A stretch of DNA of 64,000 nucleotides from Flavobacterium acetivorans (GTDB lineage Bacteria; Bacteroidota; Bacteroidia; Flavobacteriales; Flavobacteriaceae): contig NZ_CP087132.1 of NCBI RefSeq assembly GCF_020911885.1, forward strand, positions 3,100,001 to 3,164,000. The letters run 5' to 3'. This document shows positions 4,672 to 40,410 of the stretch, piece by piece; positions within the stretch are counted from its first letter, which is position 1, and every line of letters starts with the position of its first letter. The notes below the pieces were generated by a model that saw only the letters and a program-made list of their open reading frames with translations, was not told where the DNA came from and did not search any database. Both the position numbers and the translations under genes were made by a program.

Positions 4672-5403
4672 TTAATGATTTTTTTTAGTCCTCAAAGATT
4701 TACCCGTTAATGCTATTCTGTGTGCTGAAGCTGACAATCTGTCCATTATCGCGTCGGCCAGAGTTGGTTCCTCAATGAAGTTGTACCAAGTATCCACTGG
4801 CAACTGTGAAGTAATCATAGTTGATCCTAAACCATATCTATCTTCGAGTATATCCAACAAGGCAATCCTTGCATCATTATTTAAGGCTTTCAATCCAAAG
4901 TCATCCAGGATCAGCAACTTGTTTGCAGAGATGCCCCTGATCCATTTCAGATATGAACCGTCAAGCCTAGCTTGGGTCACGGCATCCATGAACTTGTTCA
5001 TGCTAAAGTACTGGGTACGGTAACCAAGCAAACAAGCACTGCGCCCTAAGGCACAGGCCATAAAAGATTTGCCACAACCAGTGGCACCGGTGATCAGGAC
5101 ATTTTCGCCTTTTTCAATAAACATACCATCAGAAAGCCTTAAGACTTGTTCTCTTGTAATGCCTCTTTCTGCATTACAGATTATATCTTCCGGCAATGCA
5201 TGATAACGCAGTTTACTAGCCTTTAGATATTTTTGTGTTCTGGAATACTCTCTGTATTCTACTTCTGCCTGAGTAATCATAGCAATCAAAGAATGGACAT
5301 CTTCTATTTCATGCACAGGAAGTGATAATGCGGCTTCATACCTTTTAGCCATGCCCGTCAATTTAAGACCTTTAAGCTGTTCTAATGTGTTTTGTGTGTT
5401 CAT
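4672..5403 (-). CDS. istB: IS21-family ATPase/helper of transposition IstB
   Basis: 243 residues, usual length for IstB. An N-terminal helical domain is followed by an AAA+ core with Walker A GATGCGKSF (about residue 100) and Walker B LLILDDFG (about 165). It acts with the IstA transposase, using ATP to organise target DNA for strand transfer. The start ATG at 5403 lies 23 nt after the istA stop, so the two are co-transcribed. No damage is seen. Confidence 0.93.
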   Translation of the reverse strand: MNTQNTLEQLKGLKLTGMAKRYEAALSLPVHEIEDVHSLIAMITQAEVEYREYSRTQKYLKASKLRYHALPEDIICNAERGITREQVLRLSDGMFIEKGENVLITGATGCGKSFMACALGRSACLLGYRTQYFSMNKFMDAVTQARLDGSYLKWIRGISANKLLILDDFGLKALNNDARIALLDILEDRYGLGSTMITSQLPVDTWYNFIEEPTLADAIMDRLSASAHRIALTGKSLRTKKNH

Positions 5404-5425
5404 TTATTAAGGTTTTATAAGTTGT

Positions 5426-6991
5426 CTAATTATAGGCTTCAGGACCTCTGAGGTTACTGTGTTCGGGGATACGGAATTCAGCAAGAGCCTCTTCTTCGAG
5501 TAAATCCATATTGTTTTCCAGGATACTTTTAATGACCCCATAGCTGATCTTGTTACCCCTTGAACCCCGTTTACAGGCAGCTTCCATTCGTATACTGCCA
5601 TAAGTATTCATTAATCGCAGCAACCCCAGACAAGCGGTATAGGACTGGTCGATTATCAGCTTACTGTCCATTACTTTTTTGAAGAATTCAAAAGTATGCG
5701 GTCCATTTTCTGCTGCTTTTTTGAGATAGTATTCAGGGTTCCATCCACGTTGATTACTAATGGCCTGGTGTCTTTCGGGCATATGTTCCTTGGTACTGGT
5801 ATAGCCATGGCTGGTATAATTCCTAGTATGTACAGCAATTCTTTGTCCATCAGAATAGATCTCTACGATGTCTTGATCATAAGAAATACGTACCTCCTTT
5901 CCAATGTAGCGGTATGGAACAGAGTAAAAGTGCCAGTCTTCGCCCACAAGTACATGGTAGTGCTTTTGCACCTTTGCCTTGGTGTAATGTCTGATACTGT
6001 ATGAGGATTCCGGCAAAGGCTGTAATAGTATTTTCTCTTGGCTTTCAAACAACTCCAGCCTACTGAATACTTTCTTCTGAAAGTTCAACTGATGATGACT
6101 ATTGAGTTTCTCTCTAATGGCATTGTTAAGTTCGGAAAGGCTATGAAAAGTATCGTTACGCAGAGCGGCATAAATACGCCTATAAGTGATCTTTACATTA
6201 TTTTCAACGGAAGGCTTGTCTTTTGGTTTATAGGGCCGAGCTGCCAGCAAAGCGACATTATTGTGGTTTGCCCATTGTTCGAGCATATCAGTAAATATGG
6301 GTTCATATTTACAACTTTTAGACACCCATTGCCTCATGTTGTCTGATTTAACAGTCAGGGGAACCCCTCCAAAGTAGGCAATAGTATGGTTCAAAGCTTT
6401 AACCACTTGAGGTAGTTTTGCATCTGGTAAAGCCTCTACATAGCCATAACCACTAAAGGGAAGTACTGCAACATATACCGGACATGCTATTAGTTCACCT
6501 GTTGAAGTATCTACGTAGTGAAGCATATCACCCGCAAAGTCTACTTCGAGTAGCTTTGCAGGAGTATGGACAAAATGCATCACGGCATTGTTTACCTTCT
6601 CCTGATCCTGTAAAAGTTCACAGAATCTGGAATACTGAAAGCCTGATGGATATTCTTTAATATATTCTTCCCAAAGCAGTAGACGCGTTACACCGGTTCG
6701 ATTAAGCTCCTTACTAAAATACCCACTCAGATTGTTAAAATGAACTTTCCGGGGATCAGTATCCTCCACTAAAACAGGCTTTATAAGCCCTAGTATCCGC
6801 TCAAGTTCCTGATCGGAACGCTTTAATAATTCTTTAAAATCAACTCCAGTTTGCGCAAATTTTTGCAAATACAGTGCGATTGTTTTTCTAGAAATTTTGA
6901 CTTCTTTTTCTATAGAACGCTGTGAAGCACCACGTTCTAAGAATAAAAGTATCTGTCTTATCTTAATCATACTAAGTAGTTTATTTGCCAT
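5426..6991 (-). CDS. istA: IS21-family transposase IstA
   Basis: About 521 residues from the ATG at 6991; an upstream in-frame TTG at 7021 is less likely. An N-terminal helix-turn-helix (RGASQRSIEKEVKISRKT) precedes an rve-type DDE core with VDFAGD, VKSDN and SVENNV supplying D, D and E. A C-terminal beta-rich domain follows. It cuts and joins the element ends. It sits inside the terminal multi-repeat ends and directly before istB. The frame is intact. Confidence 0.93.
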   Translation of the reverse strand: MANKLLSMIKIRQILLFLERGASQRSIEKEVKISRKTIALYLQKFAQTGVDFKELLKRSDQELERILGLIKPVLVEDTDPRKVHFNNLSGYFSKELNRTGVTRLLLWEEYIKEYPSGFQYSRFCELLQDQEKVNNAVMHFVHTPAKLLEVDFAGDMLHYVDTSTGELIACPVYVAVLPFSGYGYVEALPDAKLPQVVKALNHTIAYFGGVPLTVKSDNMRQWVSKSCKYEPIFTDMLEQWANHNNVALLAARPYKPKDKPSVENNVKITYRRIYAALRNDTFHSLSELNNAIREKLNSHHQLNFQKKVFSRLELFESQEKILLQPLPESSYSIRHYTKAKVQKHYHVLVGEDWHFYSVPYRYIGKEVRISYDQDIVEIYSDGQRIAVHTRNYTSHGYTSTKEHMPERHQAISNQRGWNPEYYLKKAAENGPHTFEFFKKVMDSKLIIDQSYTACLGLLRLMNTYGSIRMEAACKRGSRGNKISYGVIKSILENNMDLLEEEALAEFRIPEHSNLRGPEAYN

Positions 6992-7388
6992 ACTGCAAGT
7001 GGTTTTTTGATTATAAACCAAACTTATAGTAATTGGCGGTTAAATCTCTACTTAGTGAGATAATGGACCCAGGATAGGTGGCGACCTTTATGCCGGAATG
7101 TCAGTCCGTTAAAAATGTTAAATCAAGAATAAAGTGGCGTACTTTGCTCCGGAATAAATGGCGACCTTTGCTCCGGAATGGGTGGCGTACTTTGTAGCGG
7201 AATCGTGGCGACCTTTGCAGCGGAATATCCACATAATTAATAGTTTTTAGTTTTTACCAAATTTTGCACTTTAATCACGAACCACACGAAAGGATTAGCT
7301 TCGCTGAATTTCATTTCGTGCAGCAGCGTGGGAGCCCGAAGAGCTGTGTATTTATTGAAAAACATGTAGTTCTAAAGGCATTCACGGA

Positions 7389-7945: not shown

Positions 7946-9703
7946 TTAAAATTTTTTATGATTATTTAAGTAATTATGATAACTATAAGGAGAGCCGAAA
8001 AACATATCTTTTTCGTGTAAATCAGGATTTTCACTCTTTTTACTTAAAGATTTTAATTCCTTTCTCAATCGCCAAATTTGTTTTTCTCTAAAGGAATCTA
8101 ACTGTTTAAGTTGTTTAGAAATACTTTTGTTATTTTTCCCTTTGACCATCTCAAAACCATTTGTCCAACACAAACCCTGTTCTGCCGATTTATAGTTATG
8201 CAATTTTATTCTTCCAACCGACATTGAACTTAATCTTGTTTGCAGACTAAAAATAAGCTGATTACTTGATTTCCTTGAAGTATTATTTAAATTCCCTTCT
8301 TTGATAGCAATGGCTTTCAAAACATTTTCCACTTGCATAACCTGTTTTCTTTTTTCTTTTCTAATGGCATCTCTTCTTAATCTTACATCCTGATCATACT
8401 TGATTTGATATCCAACAAAAGATAGCCAAGGAAAAGCATTATGTTCTTCTTTTGGATTTGCCCATAGATATGGTTCCTTTGATTTACTTTCCCTCCAAAA
8501 TTTTTTCCAATTTTCTTTTATAAGATAATCTCCACAATAGGTTGGTTCATGGTACAACAAAAAATTTTTTTTGAGTTCGGCTTTGTACACATCCAAACCT
8601 TGTTGACATTTAATTTTGTCCTCATGCATTAAAATCATGTCGTCACAAAAGCGAACATAGAAAATATCGCTGCAAACCTCTCTAACCTTTGAATCAATAT
8701 TATGCAGTAGAAGATTAGATATAAAACATGAAATGGCATTTCCTTGAGGCACACCGATTCTATTATCAAGATATTCAAGTCCATAGTCCTTTATTAGATC
8801 TTTTTCAATCCATTTGAAATACCCGTTCTCTTTTAATTTATTATCTTTCCAAAACTCTTTTATGTTATTCTTCGGATAGACATCTATGTTAAATGAAAAA
8901 GAATTTAAAAATTTATTAAAGATTAAAATTGCATCCTTATCGACAGCCTTGTTATGTAATAGCTCAATTGATTTTATGTGACCTGTAAAAACTTCCCTTA
9001 TGTGATTATGATTAACTGTATCGAAAAATTTTTGAATGTCGCATTCCGAGACCCAGATGTTTTTCTTCTGACTTCTATAATCAATGATTTTTTCGATAGA
9101 CTTATGATGGTTATATTTGACATCTCTCTTTGACGATCTAAAGGCAAATGAGCAATCGAAAAAATACTGATCAAAAAAATCAGTCAGATATCTTGAAGTT
9201 AAAGAACTTATCACTCTGTCTTGTAGTTCGTAAATTGCGATTGGCCTATATTCGGTCTTAACTTTTCCTAGTTTTTTAAGAATGCCGAAAATTTTTGGAC
9301 TTTCCATTTCATATGATTCTAGATTCTCAATTTTTTGTCTAATATCATTAACTAAAGAGATTAAATTTTGATACCATTCTTCACAATGTTCTAAAGGAAT
9401 TTTTTTTTTCTTGTAAAAGGCATAACATTTATATAATCTTTCGGCAACTCGCTTTATGCTGTTATCATACTTTTTCCTTTCTTGCTCATTTAGTTTTAAC
9501 CATTTTCTTCTTTTAGGAAAAACACTTTGTAATTTTTCAAATTCTATATTTGATTTACTAATTTGGATTTTTTTTGTACTGTAGTGTAAACTTATATCTC
9601 TCATCATATGAAGTTTATGTCTTCTATGGGAGTGTTTCGCTCTATAATTAGCGAGTAATTTTACTATATTTTCTTCTGAAAAACATTCTGGAAGTGAAAT
9701 CAT
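7946..9703 (-). CDS. Reverse transcriptase of unassigned class (candidate defence RT)
   Basis: 585 residues from the ATG at 9703, reading MISLPECFSE. A GTG at 9778 would add 25 odd residues and overlap the structured leader. A basic N-terminal region of about 150 residues is followed by the RT palm. It shows YRPIAIYELQDRV, SFAFRSSK, motif A CDIQKFFDTVNH, GVPQGNAISCF, and the catalytic box FCDD near residue 353 (Phe-Cys-Asp-Asp instead of the common YADD). A thumb-like part has FVGYQIKYDQDVRLR. The remaining 150 basic residues have no recognised domain. No maturase, HNH or group II intron RNA features are seen. This fits the unknown-group RTs that include anti-phage DRT systems, but the class cannot be fixed by eye. 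Confidence 0.85.
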   Translation of the reverse strand: MISLPECFSEENIVKLLANYRAKHSHRRHKLHMMRDISLHYSTKKIQISKSNIEFEKLQSVFPKRRKWLKLNEQERKKYDNSIKRVAERLYKCYAFYKKKKIPLEHCEEWYQNLISLVNDIRQKIENLESYEMESPKIFGILKKLGKVKTEYRPIAIYELQDRVISSLTSRYLTDFFDQYFFDCSFAFRSSKRDVKYNHHKSIEKIIDYRSQKKNIWVSECDIQKFFDTVNHNHIREVFTGHIKSIELLHNKAVDKDAILIFNKFLNSFSFNIDVYPKNNIKEFWKDNKLKENGYFKWIEKDLIKDYGLEYLDNRIGVPQGNAISCFISNLLLHNIDSKVREVCSDIFYVRFCDDMILMHEDKIKCQQGLDVYKAELKKNFLLYHEPTYCGDYLIKENWKKFWRESKSKEPYLWANPKEEHNAFPWLSFVGYQIKYDQDVRLRRDAIRKEKRKQVMQVENVLKAIAIKEGNLNNTSRKSSNQLIFSLQTRLSSMSVGRIKLHNYKSAEQGLCWTNGFEMVKGKNNKSISKQLKQLDSFREKQIWRLRKELKSLSKKSENPDLHEKDMFFGSPYSYHNYLNNHKKF

Positions 9704-9843
9704 AAAAAAAAGTGTCGGCGAATTAATTAATATGAAGATATAAATGTGAACTTTAAACAAACAGCAACATTGAGTCACTTATAATTAGAGCTGCTTCAAA
9801 TGAATGATCTGTACTAAAACAAACCACACCTACCTGACACTTT
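9704..9843 (-). ncRNA. Candidate structured leader/template RNA of the reverse transcriptase
   Basis: On the minus strand, AAAGTGTC at the 5' side (9836-9843) is perfectly complementary to GACACTTT (9709-9716). It is extended by two G-C pairs across a one-base bulge, so about 125 nt are closed by a terminal stem. An inner stem pairs AAGCAGC (9790-9796) with GCTGTTT (9759-9765). The stem is followed by a T run and then at once by the RT ATG. A TATATTTG -7 box lies 4 nt upstream of the stem. Position and layout resemble the RNAs found 5' of some DRT and retron RTs. The pairing is seen; the function is inferred. Confidence 0.5.
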
Positions 9844-9847
9844 ATTA

Positions 9848-9855
9848 CAAATATA
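9848..9855 (-). promoter_or_regulatory. -7 box (TATATTTG) of the RT transcript
   Basis: A perfect TANNTTTG box reads toward the RT. Transcription would begin within a few bases of the terminal stem of the candidate RNA. A clear TTG -33 element at the expected distance is not visible. Confidence 0.5.
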
Positions 9856-9882
9856 ATGTTAATTTTGAATAAAAAAAGGAAA

Positions 9883-10842
9883 ATGCTTAATTATAGACTG
9901 TCAATTTTTAACAATGCTTTTAATACAATAGGGAATGAAACCTCACTTCAACAGGAACTTGATGATATAAGGTCTGGCAAGTACAAATTGGAAATAAATA
10001 ACTGCAGAAAAACACTCATTAATGAAAAAAATAAAGAGCTATATAAAAAAAATAAATCTAAATTAAAAGCTGTCTCTTTTTGTGGATTGTTTGAGAATGG
10101 AAGGAAATTATCCAATTTATCTTCCTACAATAGTTTAATTGTTATTGATATAGATGAAATAGAGGATATTGATAAAGTCAAAGCTAAATTAGTTAAGGAC
10201 CCTTATATTATGGCACTGTGGGATTCTCCATCTTTTCAAGGATTAAAGGGACTTATAAAAGTCGATTCCACAATTGAAAATCATAAAGATTTCTTTTTTT
10301 CGTTAAGTATTTATTTTTTGCAAGAATATAACATTGAGTTGGATAAAAGTGGAAGTGATATTACAAGATTATGTTACGTTTCATGGGACCCAGATATATA
10401 CATCAATTATGATTCAGTAATTTTTGACGAATTAATTAATGTTCCCGACAAAAAACCTAACGAAAAGAAAAAAACAGTCGAGTCAACTAAAATTAAATCT
10501 GTACCAAAAAATGCGTTTGCTACTGAGGGACTTAATAACCAACTAGATCGTCAGTTATTAAAGAAAATAATTACTTTTCTCAATAGCAGAAATTTATCTA
10601 TAACTAATGATTTTTCAAGTTGGGTAAAGGTCGCAGTAATTATCGCTAATAGTTTTAGTTACGATTTAGGAGAAAATTACTTTCTTATACTTTGTAGAAT
10701 GGACGGTGAAAATTATAATGAATTCAAAAGCAAAGAATTACTTAAATATTGCTATGCTAACAGAGACTTAAATCGTTCTGATCGATTATCTTTTGCTAGT
10801 ATTATTTACTTTGCATCTCAAAAGGGTTTTGTAAAAAAATAG
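9883..10842 (+). CDS. VirE N-terminal/PriCT-like primase protein without helicase
   Basis: 319 residues from the ATG at 9883 (MLNYRLSIFNNAFN, matching the usual family start); an ATG at 9856 is an alternative. Residues about 40-180 look like the BT4734/VirE_N domain, an archaeo-eukaryotic-primase-like fold: VIDIDEIEDI, then LWDSPSFQGLKGLIKV and GSDITRLCYVSWDP. A lysine-rich linker follows. The C-terminal part (SSWVKVAVIIANSF, then SKELLKYCYANRDL) resembles PriCT-type primase C-terminal domains. The helicase usually attached in mobile-element VirE proteins is missing. It is divergent from the RT with only about 140 nt between, so shared regulation or function is possible. Confidence 0.7.
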   Translation: MLNYRLSIFNNAFNTIGNETSLQQELDDIRSGKYKLEINNCRKTLINEKNKELYKKNKSKLKAVSFCGLFENGRKLSNLSSYNSLIVIDIDEIEDIDKVKAKLVKDPYIMALWDSPSFQGLKGLIKVDSTIENHKDFFFSLSIYFLQEYNIELDKSGSDITRLCYVSWDPDIYINYDSVIFDELINVPDKKPNEKKKTVESTKIKSVPKNAFATEGLNNQLDRQLLKKIITFLNSRNLSITNDFSSWVKVAVIIANSFSYDLGENYFLILCRMDGENYNEFKSKELLKYCYANRDLNRSDRLSFASIIYFASQKGFVKK

Positions 10843-11054: not shown

Positions 11055-13184
11055 ATGGAATCAAAAAGAATCTCTAGACATATAGACCGTTTAATCTTAG
11101 ATCCTAATAATTATAGATTCATTGATCGTCAAGACTATAAAGTAGTTACTGATGAAGAAGCTGCGGATCAACGAGTACAACAACGCACTTTGAACTTTAT
11201 TTTAGGTAAGAATCAAGTTAACGTTCAAGATCTTATAAGTAGTTTTAAATCAAATGGTTTTATGGATATTGATCAAATCCAAGTTAAAGCTATTGGTGAC
11301 AAACATTTAGTATTAGAAGGTAATCGACGAACAGCAACATTAAAATTTTTATATGATGAATTTAAAAGTGGGAATGATGTTGGTAAATTAACTGAAATTG
11401 ATTTTAAAAGTATCAATTTAGTCGAAATCTCCGATGAAAACCCAGTACAGCATTTAATTACAATGGGGCTTCACCATATTAGCGGTAAAAAAAGATGGTC
11501 AGCTGTTAATGAAGCTCAATTAGTCAATGATTTAATAAGAAGTCATGGGCTATCGGAAGATGAAGTTTGCGATAAGTTAGGAATTACGAAACACAAATTA
11601 AGGAGAAGCAGAAGAACTTTATCATTTATTGAGCAATACAAAAAAAGTGATTTTGGAGATCAATTTGAACCGAACATGTTTACAATTTTTGAGACAATTG
11701 TAGGTACATCTTCTTTGAAATCCTGGATAGGATGGGATGATTATAATTACATTGCCACGAATAAGGAGAATCTTGAAAGATTTTTTACTTGGATTTCTAC
11801 AGATGAAGAAATTGAAATTGATGAAGATGGTAATGAAAGATCTAAAACAATTGATCCAATCATAACTCAGTACCGTCAAGTTAAAGAAATTTCAGAATTT
11901 ATAAATGATTCGAATGCTGTAAAAAAAATGGAAGAAAGTCGGAGTATTACTGAAGGGTATACTTACAGTGATGCTATAAGTGAAAATAGATTAAAAAATG
12001 CTCTTCAAAATATAGGTAGTGAAATCCAAGTAGCGTTTAATTTTAGTGAACATTTAAGTCCTGACGAATATCTAGAAATAGAAAAGCTCAAATCAAAACT
12101 TGATCGTTTAATTCCAAGCACACAATCTAACTTAGTGCTTAGTGGTAAATCTGCATCTTTATATTTTCCAAGCATTAGAAAACAATTTAGCGAAACATTT
12201 ATTCATCAATATAGAAAGTTAAAAAAAATTGATGTTAAAAATTTAAGTCAAGTAAACATATTTGTAGGTGGTAATAACATGGGGAAAACTTCGATTTTAG
12301 AAGCTTTTTACCTTTCTAGTCAGTTAAATGATCTAAATGCGTTTGTGCAATTAGAAAAATATCGCGGGAAATATATTGGCGAACTAAACTCAAATTGGGT
12401 GAGTAAGAACTTTAATACTTTTATTGAAATAGAAAGTAAATTTAATAAATCTGACTCTGTAATATATATATCCTCTGAAAAAACAGAAGAAGATATTGAC
12501 AAATCTGGGTATTTGTCCACAATATCTGTTCAAGCAAAAGTTGATAAGGAAACTTTTGAAAGTAATTTGCATTTATATGCAAATAAAGATGCGGATTTAA
12601 GATTTATTAAATCTTCAATTTTATGTCCCGCAACTTTTACAAGTCCATATAGATATAATAGTGAATTATTAAAAAAGGCACATGCTTTTGCAGTTGAAAA
12701 TAGATATTTTGATGAAATAATTAGCTTTATTAAAGAAAATTTAGATCCTCATATTGAGAAGATAGAGTTAATCAACGTAGATAATGAAAGTCGATTTGTT
12801 GTAACTTCTAGTGCATTAACTGATGTTTTAGATATTACTAAATATGGGGAAGGTCTTCAACGTATATTTGAAATAACATTATTCATGGTCTATAGTAAAG
12901 ATGGAATAATTTGTATTGACGAAATTGATAGTGCAATTCACAAAAAGTTATTGATAAAATTTACAGATTTTATTCAGCGTTTAGCAGCTAAATACAATGT
13001 TCAGGTATTTTTGACTACACATAGTAAAGAATGTATTGATGCTTTCGTCGAAAATAAATATCCTGATGATGAATTAATGGCATATGCACTAGAGCTTGAC
13101 GCGGAGGGAAATTTGGAATGTAATTTTTTAAGTGGAAATAAATTAAAGCAATTAGTTGAATCTATAAATATTGACATAAGATAA
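11055..13184 (+). CDS. ParB-like domain fused to an AAA (OLD/ABC-type) ATPase, candidate defence protein
   Basis: 709 residues. The N-terminus (RHIDRLILDPNNYRF, then LVLEGNRRTATLKFL near residue 95) matches the ParB/Srx N-terminal fold, including its conserved GxRR-type box. A predicted HTH follows (SEDEVCDKLGITKHKLRRS, about 165-185), as in ParB proteins. After a long middle region comes an ATPase of the AAA_15/OLD type: Walker A GGNNMGKTS (about 404), signature-like YGEGLQR (about 595), Walker B IICIDEIDSA (about 617), and switch His in TTHSKE (about 655). The next gene starts 2 nt after the stop and has TOPRIM features. ATPase plus TOPRIM pairs occur in PARIS and related defence systems, but a ParB-headed ATPase of this kind is not one I recognise. 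Confidence 0.8.
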   Translation: MESKRISRHIDRLILDPNNYRFIDRQDYKVVTDEEAADQRVQQRTLNFILGKNQVNVQDLISSFKSNGFMDIDQIQVKAIGDKHLVLEGNRRTATLKFLYDEFKSGNDVGKLTEIDFKSINLVEISDENPVQHLITMGLHHISGKKRWSAVNEAQLVNDLIRSHGLSEDEVCDKLGITKHKLRRSRRTLSFIEQYKKSDFGDQFEPNMFTIFETIVGTSSLKSWIGWDDYNYIATNKENLERFFTWISTDEEIEIDEDGNERSKTIDPIITQYRQVKEISEFINDSNAVKKMEESRSITEGYTYSDAISENRLKNALQNIGSEIQVAFNFSEHLSPDEYLEIEKLKSKLDRLIPSTQSNLVLSGKSASLYFPSIRKQFSETFIHQYRKLKKIDVKNLSQVNIFVGGNNMGKTSILEAFYLSSQLNDLNAFVQLEKYRGKYIGELNSNWVSKNFNTFIEIESKFNKSDSVIYISSEKTEEDIDKSGYLSTISVQAKVDKETFESNLHLYANKDADLRFIKSSILCPATFTSPYRYNSELLKKAHAFAVENRYFDEIISFIKENLDPHIEKIELINVDNESRFVVTSSALTDVLDITKYGEGLQRIFEITLFMVYSKDGIICIDEIDSAIHKKLLIKFTDFIQRLAAKYNVQVFLTTHSKECIDAFVENKYPDDELMAYALELDAEGNLECNFLSGNKLKQLVESINIDIR

Positions 13185-13186
13185 CG

Positions 13187-14080
13187 ATGGATAAAAATAT
13201 AATTTTAGCGCTTTGTGAAGGCCCGCATGATGTTGCGTTTTTGAACAAAATATTAAAAACTGACGGTTTTAAAAGTAATGATAGTGTAAAATTAGGTGAT
13301 TTTCCTTCACCAATGAATCATATGTTAGCTAGAGAAGCTTCCAAATCAGAAGTAAAAGATCTAAACATACAGGAAATTAGGCAAACTCTATTACCCACCA
13401 ATTCCTTGAAACGTGACGAAACATATCTGTTTTTGTATTCATTAGGCGGTGATGGAAAAAAAGCTTCTAGAAAGTCTTTATTAGAGAAAGTAAAGTCATA
13501 CATTCCAGCAAAAGGTGAAATAAAGCAAGGGCGTTTTACAGAAGACACTACGATAAAAATTGTTTATTTTTTTGATGCAGATAATAATGGTGTTGCAAGA
13601 AGATTATTAGAGGTCAAAAATGAGATAAAAGAAATATTGACTTCTTTAAATAAAGATTCTTTTACTGAAAATGGCAGCTATGAAGAATGTGAAGGATTAA
13701 AAACTGGTTGTTATATTTTTACTGGAGTTGATAATAATTTAGGTAAATTGGAAAACATACTATTACCATTGATGACAGTAGGAAATGAGCAAATATTTTC
13801 AAATGCTAATAGTTTTCTTGATGAAAATCATGACGAAAATAGATTGTTTCCGTTTAAAATTAAAATTGGAACTTCAGGTATATTTGAAGAAAGGAGTGCA
13901 AAGACCAGTGAGAAATATAAATTTGATAAAAGTAAATCATTAATTGGTACTGTAGGCCAATTACAACAGTCTGGTGGAGCAAATACTGTTTGTATTGGAT
14001 TTACAGATTATCTTACGCTAGAAAAAATTTCTACCAATCCTAAATGTAAAGAAATCATAGATTTCATTAACAATGCTTGA
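13187..14080 (+). CDS. TOPRIM-like nuclease/effector partner of the ParB-ATPase
   Basis: 297 residues. The N-terminus reads IILALCEGPHDVAFL, with the acidic residue and the GxxD of the TOPRIM first motif (Glu11). IKIVYFFDADNNG near residue 130 supplies the DxD motif. A third block, LENILLPLM, and a C-terminal TDYLTLEKI complete a protein similar in build to DUF3226/DUF4435-like TOPRIM proteins. It starts 2 nt after the ATPase stop, so translation is coupled. The likely role is an RNA or DNA nuclease released or controlled by the ATPase when an infection is sensed. Role and family subtype are inference. Confidence 0.7.
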   Translation: MDKNIILALCEGPHDVAFLNKILKTDGFKSNDSVKLGDFPSPMNHMLAREASKSEVKDLNIQEIRQTLLPTNSLKRDETYLFLYSLGGDGKKASRKSLLEKVKSYIPAKGEIKQGRFTEDTTIKIVYFFDADNNGVARRLLEVKNEIKEILTSLNKDSFTENGSYEECEGLKTGCYIFTGVDNNLGKLENILLPLMTVGNEQIFSNANSFLDENHDENRLFPFKIKIGTSGIFEERSAKTSEKYKFDKSKSLIGTVGQLQQSGGANTVCIGFTDYLTLEKISTNPKCKEIIDFINNA

Positions 14081-26610: not shown

Positions 26611-27537
26611 TTATTGAAACATCCCTACTCTACTTTCCAACAACTCCAAATACTTCTCTTTCATATCCCCTGACAGAAAAGAGATTTCAAGTAATTCTTT
26701 CCATTTTGGAATTGCTTCTTGCATTTGTTGCAGTATGTTAGCAATTGTTTTCTCGTTGAGTTCTAATCTTTCTTTAGCATAATAGTCAACAAAATCAGCT
26801 GCTTTTAGATTACTTTTTTTTCCTTTCAAGGTCAGTGCAATTTCTTCTTCAGGATTTTTTACAGCTATCGTAGAATTTAAAAAATCATATACTGATGTAA
26901 GGGTTGTTTTACCATTTTTAGTTATCAAGGAAAAGTTTTTCAAATGCATATCTTCATTTCCAGTCACATAACAAAAAAGAATTCTTTTAAAGAAATCTGC
27001 TTTTTCGATAGCTGGAAAAGAACAAAATTCGTCAAGTACAGGAATCAATTTCTCCATTGTAAAACGATATTTTGTATCTCGTGTATTTGCTGTTAATTGG
27101 GCAAAATCTTCTGTTGCTAATTTTTTTCCTTTACCATATCGGTCAAAACGCTTAATAAAATAGGACAAACTACCATCTTTAGCATATAGCATCCCGTGAA
27201 AAGGAACTTCTAAACCAAAGACTTTAGCCATTCGCATGGTTAGATCTTCATTTTCCGGTAATTGTGGAAATAAATCGTTCTGTGGTTTTATAATGTAGGT
27301 TCCAAATTGATCTACAATTTTAAATTCCTGATCCACTATCGAGATAGCTGCACTAAGCTTTGGTTGCACACCCTGTATAGACAGCTTTTTAGCCCTGTTA
27401 GCAGCTTCCTGACGAAGTTCGACTGCTGTATAAGGTAAATCCTTTAAAAAAGTCAATTTAGGAGCTATCAACCGAAGTCCTTTTTCACTGTACTTATCTG
27501 TTCCGCATAATTCATAAGTAATGGGACATCTATTCAT
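26611..27537 (-). CDS. hipT: HipT-type serine/threonine kinase toxin (HipA C-terminal part)
   Basis: 308 residues. LSIQGVQPKLSA near residue 52 is the flexible Ser-containing loop that HipA-type kinases autophosphorylate. YFIKRFDR, the catalytic loop GNEDMHLKNFSLI (about 190) and the metal-binding VYDFLN (about 215) complete the kinase core. It lacks HipA's N-terminal subdomain, which is encoded by the preceding small gene, the layout of HipBST systems. E. coli HipT phosphorylates tryptophanyl-tRNA synthetase; the target here is unknown. It overlaps hipS by 8 nt. Confidence 0.88.
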   Translation of the reverse strand: MNRCPITYELCGTDKYSEKGLRLIAPKLTFLKDLPYTAVELRQEAANRAKKLSIQGVQPKLSAAISIVDQEFKIVDQFGTYIIKPQNDLFPQLPENEDLTMRMAKVFGLEVPFHGMLYAKDGSLSYFIKRFDRYGKGKKLATEDFAQLTANTRDTKYRFTMEKLIPVLDEFCSFPAIEKADFFKRILFCYVTGNEDMHLKNFSLITKNGKTTLTSVYDFLNSTIAVKNPEEEIALTLKGKKSNLKAADFVDYYAKERLELNEKTIANILQQMQEAIPKWKELLEISFLSGDMKEKYLELLESRVGMFQ

Positions 27538-40290: not shown

Positions 40291-40324
40291 AATAATTAGG
40301 AGCTAATCCCGCTATATGCTATAT

Positions 40325-40351
40325 CTCTTGTGGCGAACTCCGCCACAAGAG
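40325..40351. repeat. REP-like hairpin between argE and argH
   Basis: CTCTTGTGGCG-AACTC-CGCCACAAGAG, a perfect 11-bp stem. It is flanked by AGCTAATCCCGCTA and ATCGGGGCTAAAAAT, which can form an outer stem. It resembles a repeat found widely in Flavobacterium intergenic regions, from memory. It may attenuate argH. Confidence 0.7.
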
Positions 40352-40410
40352 GATGCCGCTACTATCGGGGCTAAAAATAGAAATGGAAACATTTCATAAA
40401 ACATCAAGAT

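Follow-up and report, generated by a model that had tools for sequence, protein, structure and literature searches.

A candidate cis-encoded structured RNA in front of a UG39 reverse transcriptase with a PrimPol-like neighbour in Flavobacterium acetivorans

The UG groups of reverse transcriptases (RTs) were reportedly defined by Mestre et al. 2022. In the retron layout a leader closed by complementary ends lies 5' of the RT, and NAxxH and VTG are the motifs of retron RTs. Moreover, the Class 2 DRTs studied so far use cis-encoded ncRNAs as templates for repetitive cDNA, according to the available portions of the reports that describe them (PMC13174585, PMC12632851, PMC12483538). In the case of DRT9 (UG28), the portion available places the ncRNA immediately upstream of the RT and describes conserved C-terminal tyrosines near the active site, from which the enzyme probably primes (PMC12483538). 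DRT10 (UG17) appears, again in the accessible part of its report, as a tripartite system (PMC12632851). Small stem-loops branch off the central stem of its RNA, and the template follows a stem-loop, after the last hairpin; DRT10 probably primes from a C-terminal Ser or Tyr.

The pairing of an RT with a primase-polymerase is found in DRT7 (UG10), where the two are fused and DNA synthesis is reported to be protein-templated (PMC13213688, available in part). PADLOC, in turn, holds a system of RT_UG39 with RTasVirE-PriCT2. The myRT group 'UG28b', which is probably the same group as UG39, co-occurs with VirE_N in 46% of cases; in the available portion of this account of UG28b/RT_UG39 an ncRNA is not mentioned (PMC8934634). 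In the literature we searched, RNAs are known for a few defence RT groups only (DRT2, 3, 9 and 10), and neither there nor in Rfam did we find a description of a UG39 RNA; our coverage of the literature was partial, and an earlier description may exist.

Here we describe a locus of Flavobacterium acetivorans which looks like a little-studied antivirus system of three parts: a UG39 RT, a cis ncRNA and a PrimPol. The locus lies in what we call the window, that is the whole 64,000-nt stretch of DNA analysed, and both of its proteins match the families of the PADLOC system mentioned above:

7946..9703, minus strand: UG39 reverse transcriptase of 585 aa, with an FCDD active site and Tyr575 (profile and alignment)
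9883..10842, plus strand: PrimPol-like partner RTasVirE-PriCT2, with a BT4734-like N domain (profile)

An earlier reading of this DNA, hereafter the first-pass annotation, had held that neither half fits a class that it could name, a view that the profile searches overturn: the RT matches PADLOC RT_UG39 over its length (1.6e-165, 550 bits, residues 6-581) and the divergent gene matches RTasVirE-PriCT2 (1.4e-101). The next-best DRT profiles were Drt9 (89.7 bits), Drt2, Drt3a and UG17 (51.9 bits). When the RT was ranked against PDB profiles, retron-named and group II intron RTs came first (74.9 bits and below) and the DRT relatives scored 60.5 (DRT9), 46.6 (DRT2) and 32.4 bits (Drt3a), DRT9 being at once the best named DRT profile after UG39 and a solved relative. 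A group II intron was rejected, since TIGR04416 gave 89.5 bits with a cut-off of 300 and Rfam, at gathering threshold, matches nothing in the window except Flavo-1.

The leader described below lies 5' of the RT and has complementary closing ends as in retrons, so that it could be read as an msr-msd, the closing stem acting as the a1/a2 repeat and the RT making branched RNA-linked DNA. We regard this as very improbable: the best retron profile reached 36.8 bits against 550 for UG39, NCBIfam retron St85 gave 39.4 bits with a cut-off of 235, the NAxxH and VTG motifs are absent from the window RT, and Rfam has no match at the leader at gathering threshold.

Tyr575 is invariant across 30 aligned RTs, and the C-terminal pattern [AP][FYH][SG]Y was found in 116 of 121 proteins; one of the remaining five is truncated and the other four keep the tyrosine at that place. 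This conserved C-terminal tyrosine is a likeness to DRT9 as well as to DRT10 with its C-terminal priming residue. Among 75 locus RTs the strict tyrosine pattern is absent from 15, which comprise truncated or extended readings, RTs with another residue before [SG]Y, and three (L061, L063 and L082) in which Phe replaces the equivalent of Tyr575. Priming may differ in this last subgroup.

As for the divergent gene, its ORF opens at 9856, the ATG at 9883, which follows TAATTTTG (9860-9867), being the likelier start. A PrimPol homologue, which the first-pass annotation had not connected with the RT, was found at 79 of 95 UG39 RT loci (duplicates and short contigs counted). Orientation was scored in 72 loci, 25 of which have it divergent from the RT and 47 codirectional with it. 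Residues were compared in 65 proteins plus that of the window, at least two of which (L056 and L067) entered as short C-terminal pieces under the start-codon rule: Asp89, Asp91, Asp154, Asp159 and Asp169 are kept in 63-64 of the 66, with Asp89 and Asp91 together in 63, and we take these residues to be the primase metal ligands. The identities of RT and PrimPol correlate (rho 0.71, n = 56, 0/999), which may equally be due to a common history of the species. With DRT7 this locus has in common that an RT goes together with a primase-polymerase; the fusion of the latter is here replaced by two separate, divergent genes. The PrimPol partner, as well as membership in UG39 and not UG28, also sets the locus apart from DRT9.

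On the minus strand 144 nt (9704-9847, read directly) separate the -7 box from the RT ATG; the candidate ncRNA and its parts lie in this interval, and the box precedes it:

9704..9846, minus strand: candidate ncRNA of ~140 nt, directly 5' of the RT (match of the covariance model R1, identity to L009, covariation in relatives)
9848..9855, minus strand: -7 box TATATTTG of the ncRNA/RT transcript (read directly; the motif recurs in relatives)
9836..9843, minus strand: 5' arm of the terminal stem P1, AAAGTGTC (read directly and by fold)
9709..9716, minus strand: 3' arm of P1, GACACTTT (read directly and by fold)
9804..9827, minus strand: inner hairpin of 9 bp (9827-9819 with 9812-9804) and a 6-nt loop (MFE fold and centroid)
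9763..9795, minus strand: second inner hairpin AGCAGC/GTTGCT (9795-9790 with 9768-9763), its arms identical in L009
9721..9748, minus strand: candidate 3' (template-position) loop with TTTATATCTTCATATTAATTAATT, which in the R1 match lines up with a stretch that is conserved and unpaired in the model
9711-9704, minus strand: U-run, continuing the 3' arm of P1 up to the RT start codon

Direct reading agrees with the first-pass annotation on the box, the arms and the two G-C pairs past the bulge, which lie where it had located them; beyond the bulged A9835, P1 is extended by the pairs G9834-C9717 and G9833-C9718. Taken singly, the leader folds weakly (z = -1.58, with 13 of 200 shuffles equally good), and dinucleotide shuffling of the upstream region gives an equally good terminal helix in 29% of cases (p = 0.29; the window is L088 in this series). 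Since the stem of the window is thus no better than chance, its sequence alone is no proof, and the claim rests on the relatives. At gathering threshold Rfam gave 0 matches at the leader, and at an E-value setting two plus-strand snoRNA matches far below the gathering score.

The leader of L009 (Flavobacterium difficile), which is the same as that of another genome of the genus (G602), is 81.4% identical to that of the window at ungapped positions, compared with 71.4% for the RT gene and 71.1% for the PrimPol gene; with gaps counted it stands, at 72.6%, only slightly above the RT gene (69.2%) and the PrimPol gene (67.8%). The L009 region aligned to the hairpin at 9804..9827 also folds into a hairpin, with its letters changed, and the counterpart of the 9721..9748 loop reads TGTCAATATCTTTGTATT. 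The AGCAGC/GTTGCT hairpin is known from these two sequences, and the MFE fold of the window picks another structure there. Compared by eye with L013, the P1 core shows matched double changes at three of its eight pairs.

Relatives were collected by a GTDB contig scan with a 30-protein RT alignment, which returned 100 relatives, 80 of them kept, at 79 loci; further loci came from an order search (395 genomes) and a genus search (398 genomes). The RT is rare in the genus, as expected of accessory genes, matching at 1e-60 in 9 of the 398 genomes with the window's own genome counted. All of ten RTs checked, nine of them from loci without PrimPol, were RT_UG39. No relative was found in viral contigs, phage records gave 8 partial matches, and at least 80% of the RT was covered in one of 109 matching plasmid records. 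A 33-kb plasmid of Thiospirochaeta perfilievii (NZ_CP035808.1, 21294-23008) carries a UG39-like RT 35.6% identical over 94% of the query.

The closing stem was scored in 76 of 87 loci (L009-L095), after exclusion of ten duplicates or near-duplicates and of L071, which has almost no upstream DNA, some close relatives being kept. It was found at p <= 0.05 against shuffles in 58 of these 76 upstream regions, and at the floor of p = 0.0099 in 33. The arms of P1 are widely different and yet complementary, as in TAAGGCGTAGAC/GTCTACGCCTTA, GCTAGAGTAGC/GCTACTCTAGC, GAGGGTAGTG/CACTGCCCTC and AAGGGGTTCC/GGAACCCCTT.

To these counts we added alignments. Fourteen divergent leaders, trimmed at the stem and aligned with MAFFT (alignment A4), gave a five-helix structure of 34 pairs, in which 88.3% of cells were paired (75.9% in shuffles), 20 of the 34 pairs were doubly changed (11.3 in shuffles) and the covariation score was 0.352 (0.172 in shuffles); 0 of 500 shuffles reached these values. 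In slid versions the paired cells drop to 36-49%, a comparison in which the structure is favoured because it was drawn from the same sequences. Trimming the leaders of A4 and A5 at the stem ends, moreover, lets the arms align more easily. With the same 14 divergent leaders untrimmed, the nine pairs of P1 were 94.4% paired, with a covariation score of 0.368 vs 0.206 (0/500) and five pairs doubly changed (3/500 shuffles).

In the case of the codirectional type, the ten pairs of P1 in 32 untrimmed leaders were 75.6% paired, covariation being 0.393 vs 0.206 (0/500); the six doubly changed pairs are not above shuffles, and one pair is mostly unpaired (12/32). The register taken from L054 proved to be off by one (60.5% paired), and the final one, from L101, was chosen after the slide control. 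Alifold returned no structure on the untrimmed codirectional leaders. An inner helix present in 15 of the 32 had all five pairs doubly changed (1/500 shuffles). A second proposed helix did not covary in its stated register (when it is shifted by one column, 93% of cells are paired with 0 double changes), and a third gave a marginal signal only.

The comparison of homologues, which the first-pass annotation had named as the check, supports its proposal: they keep, with compensatory changes, a structured RNA that lies immediately 5' of the RT and carries a -7 box at the 5' end. A constant length is not kept, the leaders varying roughly between 110 and 240 nt. From these sequence comparisons we hold with high confidence that this is a real RNA and that it is the RNA of the UG39 RT. 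A cis-encoded structured ncRNA beside the RT, which is a feature of Class 2 DRTs, is found here in the form of a predicted RNA.

A covariance model, R1, was built from A4 with the window and L009 excluded, and searched against the window plus 30 loci (352,889 bases). Five matches were obtained at E <= 1, four of them at the leader (L020, the window, L076 and L009) and one stray (L038, 15.3 bits); that of the window spans 9845-9702 with 23.7 bits and E 0.005. Having found the leaders of the window and of three of the 30 other loci and missed the rest, R1 is a narrow model. Over the whole genome of the window (a single contig, 3.56 Mb) the leader was the sole match at E <= 1 (E 0.05; 150 of 4220 candidates scored). 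Over 299 genomes of the genus there were eight matches at E <= 0.05, two of them UG39 leaders at 115-128 bits; for the other six, at 25-30 bits, the sequence retrieved (roughly 3 kb) held no UG39-like RT. Under the stricter filters of this genus-wide search the window leader was missed. With off-target matches at 25-30 bits, the 23.7 bits of the window are no genome-wide proof, and the match counts through its exact position at a locus named beforehand.

Promoters and RNA ends were compared in 23 of the 25 divergent and 39 of the 47 codirectional loci, the helix used being the best one per locus, which at least for L043 is not P1. The motif TAnnTTTG, which we take to be the Bacteroidota -7 consensus, precedes the stem by at most 18 nt in 13 of the 23 divergent loci (1.1 expected) and in 0 of the 39 codirectional ones, in which a single transcript would carry the RNA between its two genes. 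The 3' arm of P1 is 4-24 nt from the RT start codon in divergent loci (median 8) and 0-23 nt in codirectional loci (median 11), and a T-rich 3' end follows the stem in 19 of 23 and 15 of 39, respectively.

An arm so close to the RT ATG should, when folded, hide the ribosome site; with the closing stem over the ribosome-binding region, folding of the RNA may compete with translation of the RT. Together with the T-rich end, by which folding could also terminate transcription, this agrees with a structure whose only function, as 5' leader of the RT mRNA, is to control translation or termination, and which is neither RNA partner nor template. A simple attenuator would nevertheless not need conserved unpaired motifs or several helices that covary over 140-240 nt; in the codirectional type the structure lies between two genes, and a -7 box immediately in front of it is absent (0/39); and related RT families use such RNAs as templates in the available portions of their reports (PMC13174585, PMC12632851, PMC12483538); we consider a purely regulatory leader unlikely.

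A partner RNA may also serve in another way, as a scaffold on which the RT is assembled or by which it is held in check, DNA synthesis then being protein-templated or untemplated, as reported for DRT7. The PrimPol partner is shared with DRT7 as described in the accessible text (PMC13213688), no template motif is universal, and the repeat test was without signal. Run on 75 loci, from which duplicates had been removed and several near-identical sets reduced by one member, it looked for direct repeats in the last 45 nt upstream of the 3' arm; these reached p <= 0.05 in 4 loci (Fisher 0.55; 5 of 75 in the 5' control). The test has low power, since the A of a DRT10-type A-B-A' repeat can be 2 nt. 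An A-B-A' pattern is apparent by eye in codirectional loops (TGTCAGTAT-CTT-TGTCAATAT), with no statistical support. Set against the scaffold explanation, UG39 is closer to the Class 2 RNA-templated RTs than to other DRT profiles, and the absence of a motif is weak evidence because the template loops of DRT10 are also poorly conserved, as far as the available part of the report goes (PMC12632851). A scaffold of this kind is, in our judgement, quite unlikely.

We favour instead a leader RNA that works as in the Class 2 DRTs (DRT2, DRT9 and DRT10), which by analogy is probable. The likeness to DRT10 includes the tripartite make-up, the central stem with small stem-loops and a candidate unpaired stretch of the UG39 leader at the place of the DRT10 template, after the last hairpin (PMC12632851, portion available). 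The differences are a SLATT partner in DRT10 as against PrimPol and PDC-M38A/B as neighbours in the window, the lack of a significant A-B-A' here, and a UG17 profile score of only 51.9 bits. The universally conserved poly-U template tract of DRT9 was not seen in the 3' loop of the window, where the U-run follows the closing stem.

Motifs were counted in 66 PrimPol loci and 15 other loci. Of the PrimPol loci, 28 of 66 have TCAGTAT near the RT and 0 of 66 have it in the stretch that lies further upstream; it is absent from the other 38, the window among them. In three Flavobacterium loci (L100, L102 and L103) the number of ATCAGT-like units in the 3' loop of the leader varies, a difference that slippage within a repeat template could produce. 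A different leader was found in seven UG39 loci without PrimPol (L026, L028, L032, L034, L041, L051 and L078), all seven of them with CGATTCGATT, a 5-nt unit in two or more copies, located some 50-70 nt upstream of the RT ATG; CGATTCGATT is present in 0 of the 66 PrimPol loci and in 7 of the 15 others. An OLD-type ATPase-TOPRIM (nuclease) gene lies upstream in L028, L034 and L051. The leader with CGATTCGATT resembles a repeat template and is the best hint that UG39 RNAs template repeats.

The mechanism that we propose would begin with transcription of the leader from its own -7 box, giving a closed stem that carries small hairpins and ends near the RT start codon. The RT would bind this RNA, which may serve as scaffold and probably as template, and would copy an unpaired stretch near its 3' side into DNA; the cDNA probably starts from the hydroxyl of the RT C-terminal tyrosine, as in DRT9 and DRT10. 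The PrimPol may then act on that DNA and make a second strand or a primer, and the DNA product would give phage defence. As a whole, we judge it likely that the leader is the cis ncRNA of the UG39 RT, copied into DNA, with the PrimPol acting on the product in phage defence; we are less sure of the role of the PrimPol in the system than of the Class 2-like working of the RNA.

More tentatively, and with some doubt, UG39 might be a three-part DNA-writing defence, in which protein-linked repeat DNA is made from the cis ncRNA and a separate PrimPol makes it duplex or extends it, combining RNA-templated and primase-made strands. This view would comprise at least two RNA types, a PrimPol type and a PrimPol-less one having a conserved CGAUUCGAUU tandem unit as likely template. 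A defined UG39 RNA, for which ends, helices and loop are predicted and which has a PrimPol partner, opens an unstudied group to direct experiment. It would show whether more of the Class 2-like RTs use cis ncRNAs, and in what way recruitment of a primase-polymerase in trans takes place, compared with the fusion in DRT7.

The surroundings of the locus in the window include the following features:

11055..14080, plus strand: candidate defence pair PDC-M38A (AAA ATPase) / PDC-M38B (DUF3226), adjoining and outside the RT system (PADLOC)
26611-27537, minus strand: HipA C-terminal domain protein
40301-40376, minus strand: Flavo-1 RNA (RF01705), 67 bits (Rfam)
4672-7021 (minus strand) and 7060-7230: IS21-type istA/istB pair, bordering the islet

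Seven further window proteins (985-27537) had no PADLOC match at 1e-15, and among ten neighbour proteins from ten relatives two had PADLOC matches at this threshold (L010 and L019). Beside istA/istB there are GTGGCG...CCTTTG...CCGGAAT repeats which, by eye, look like IS end repeats.
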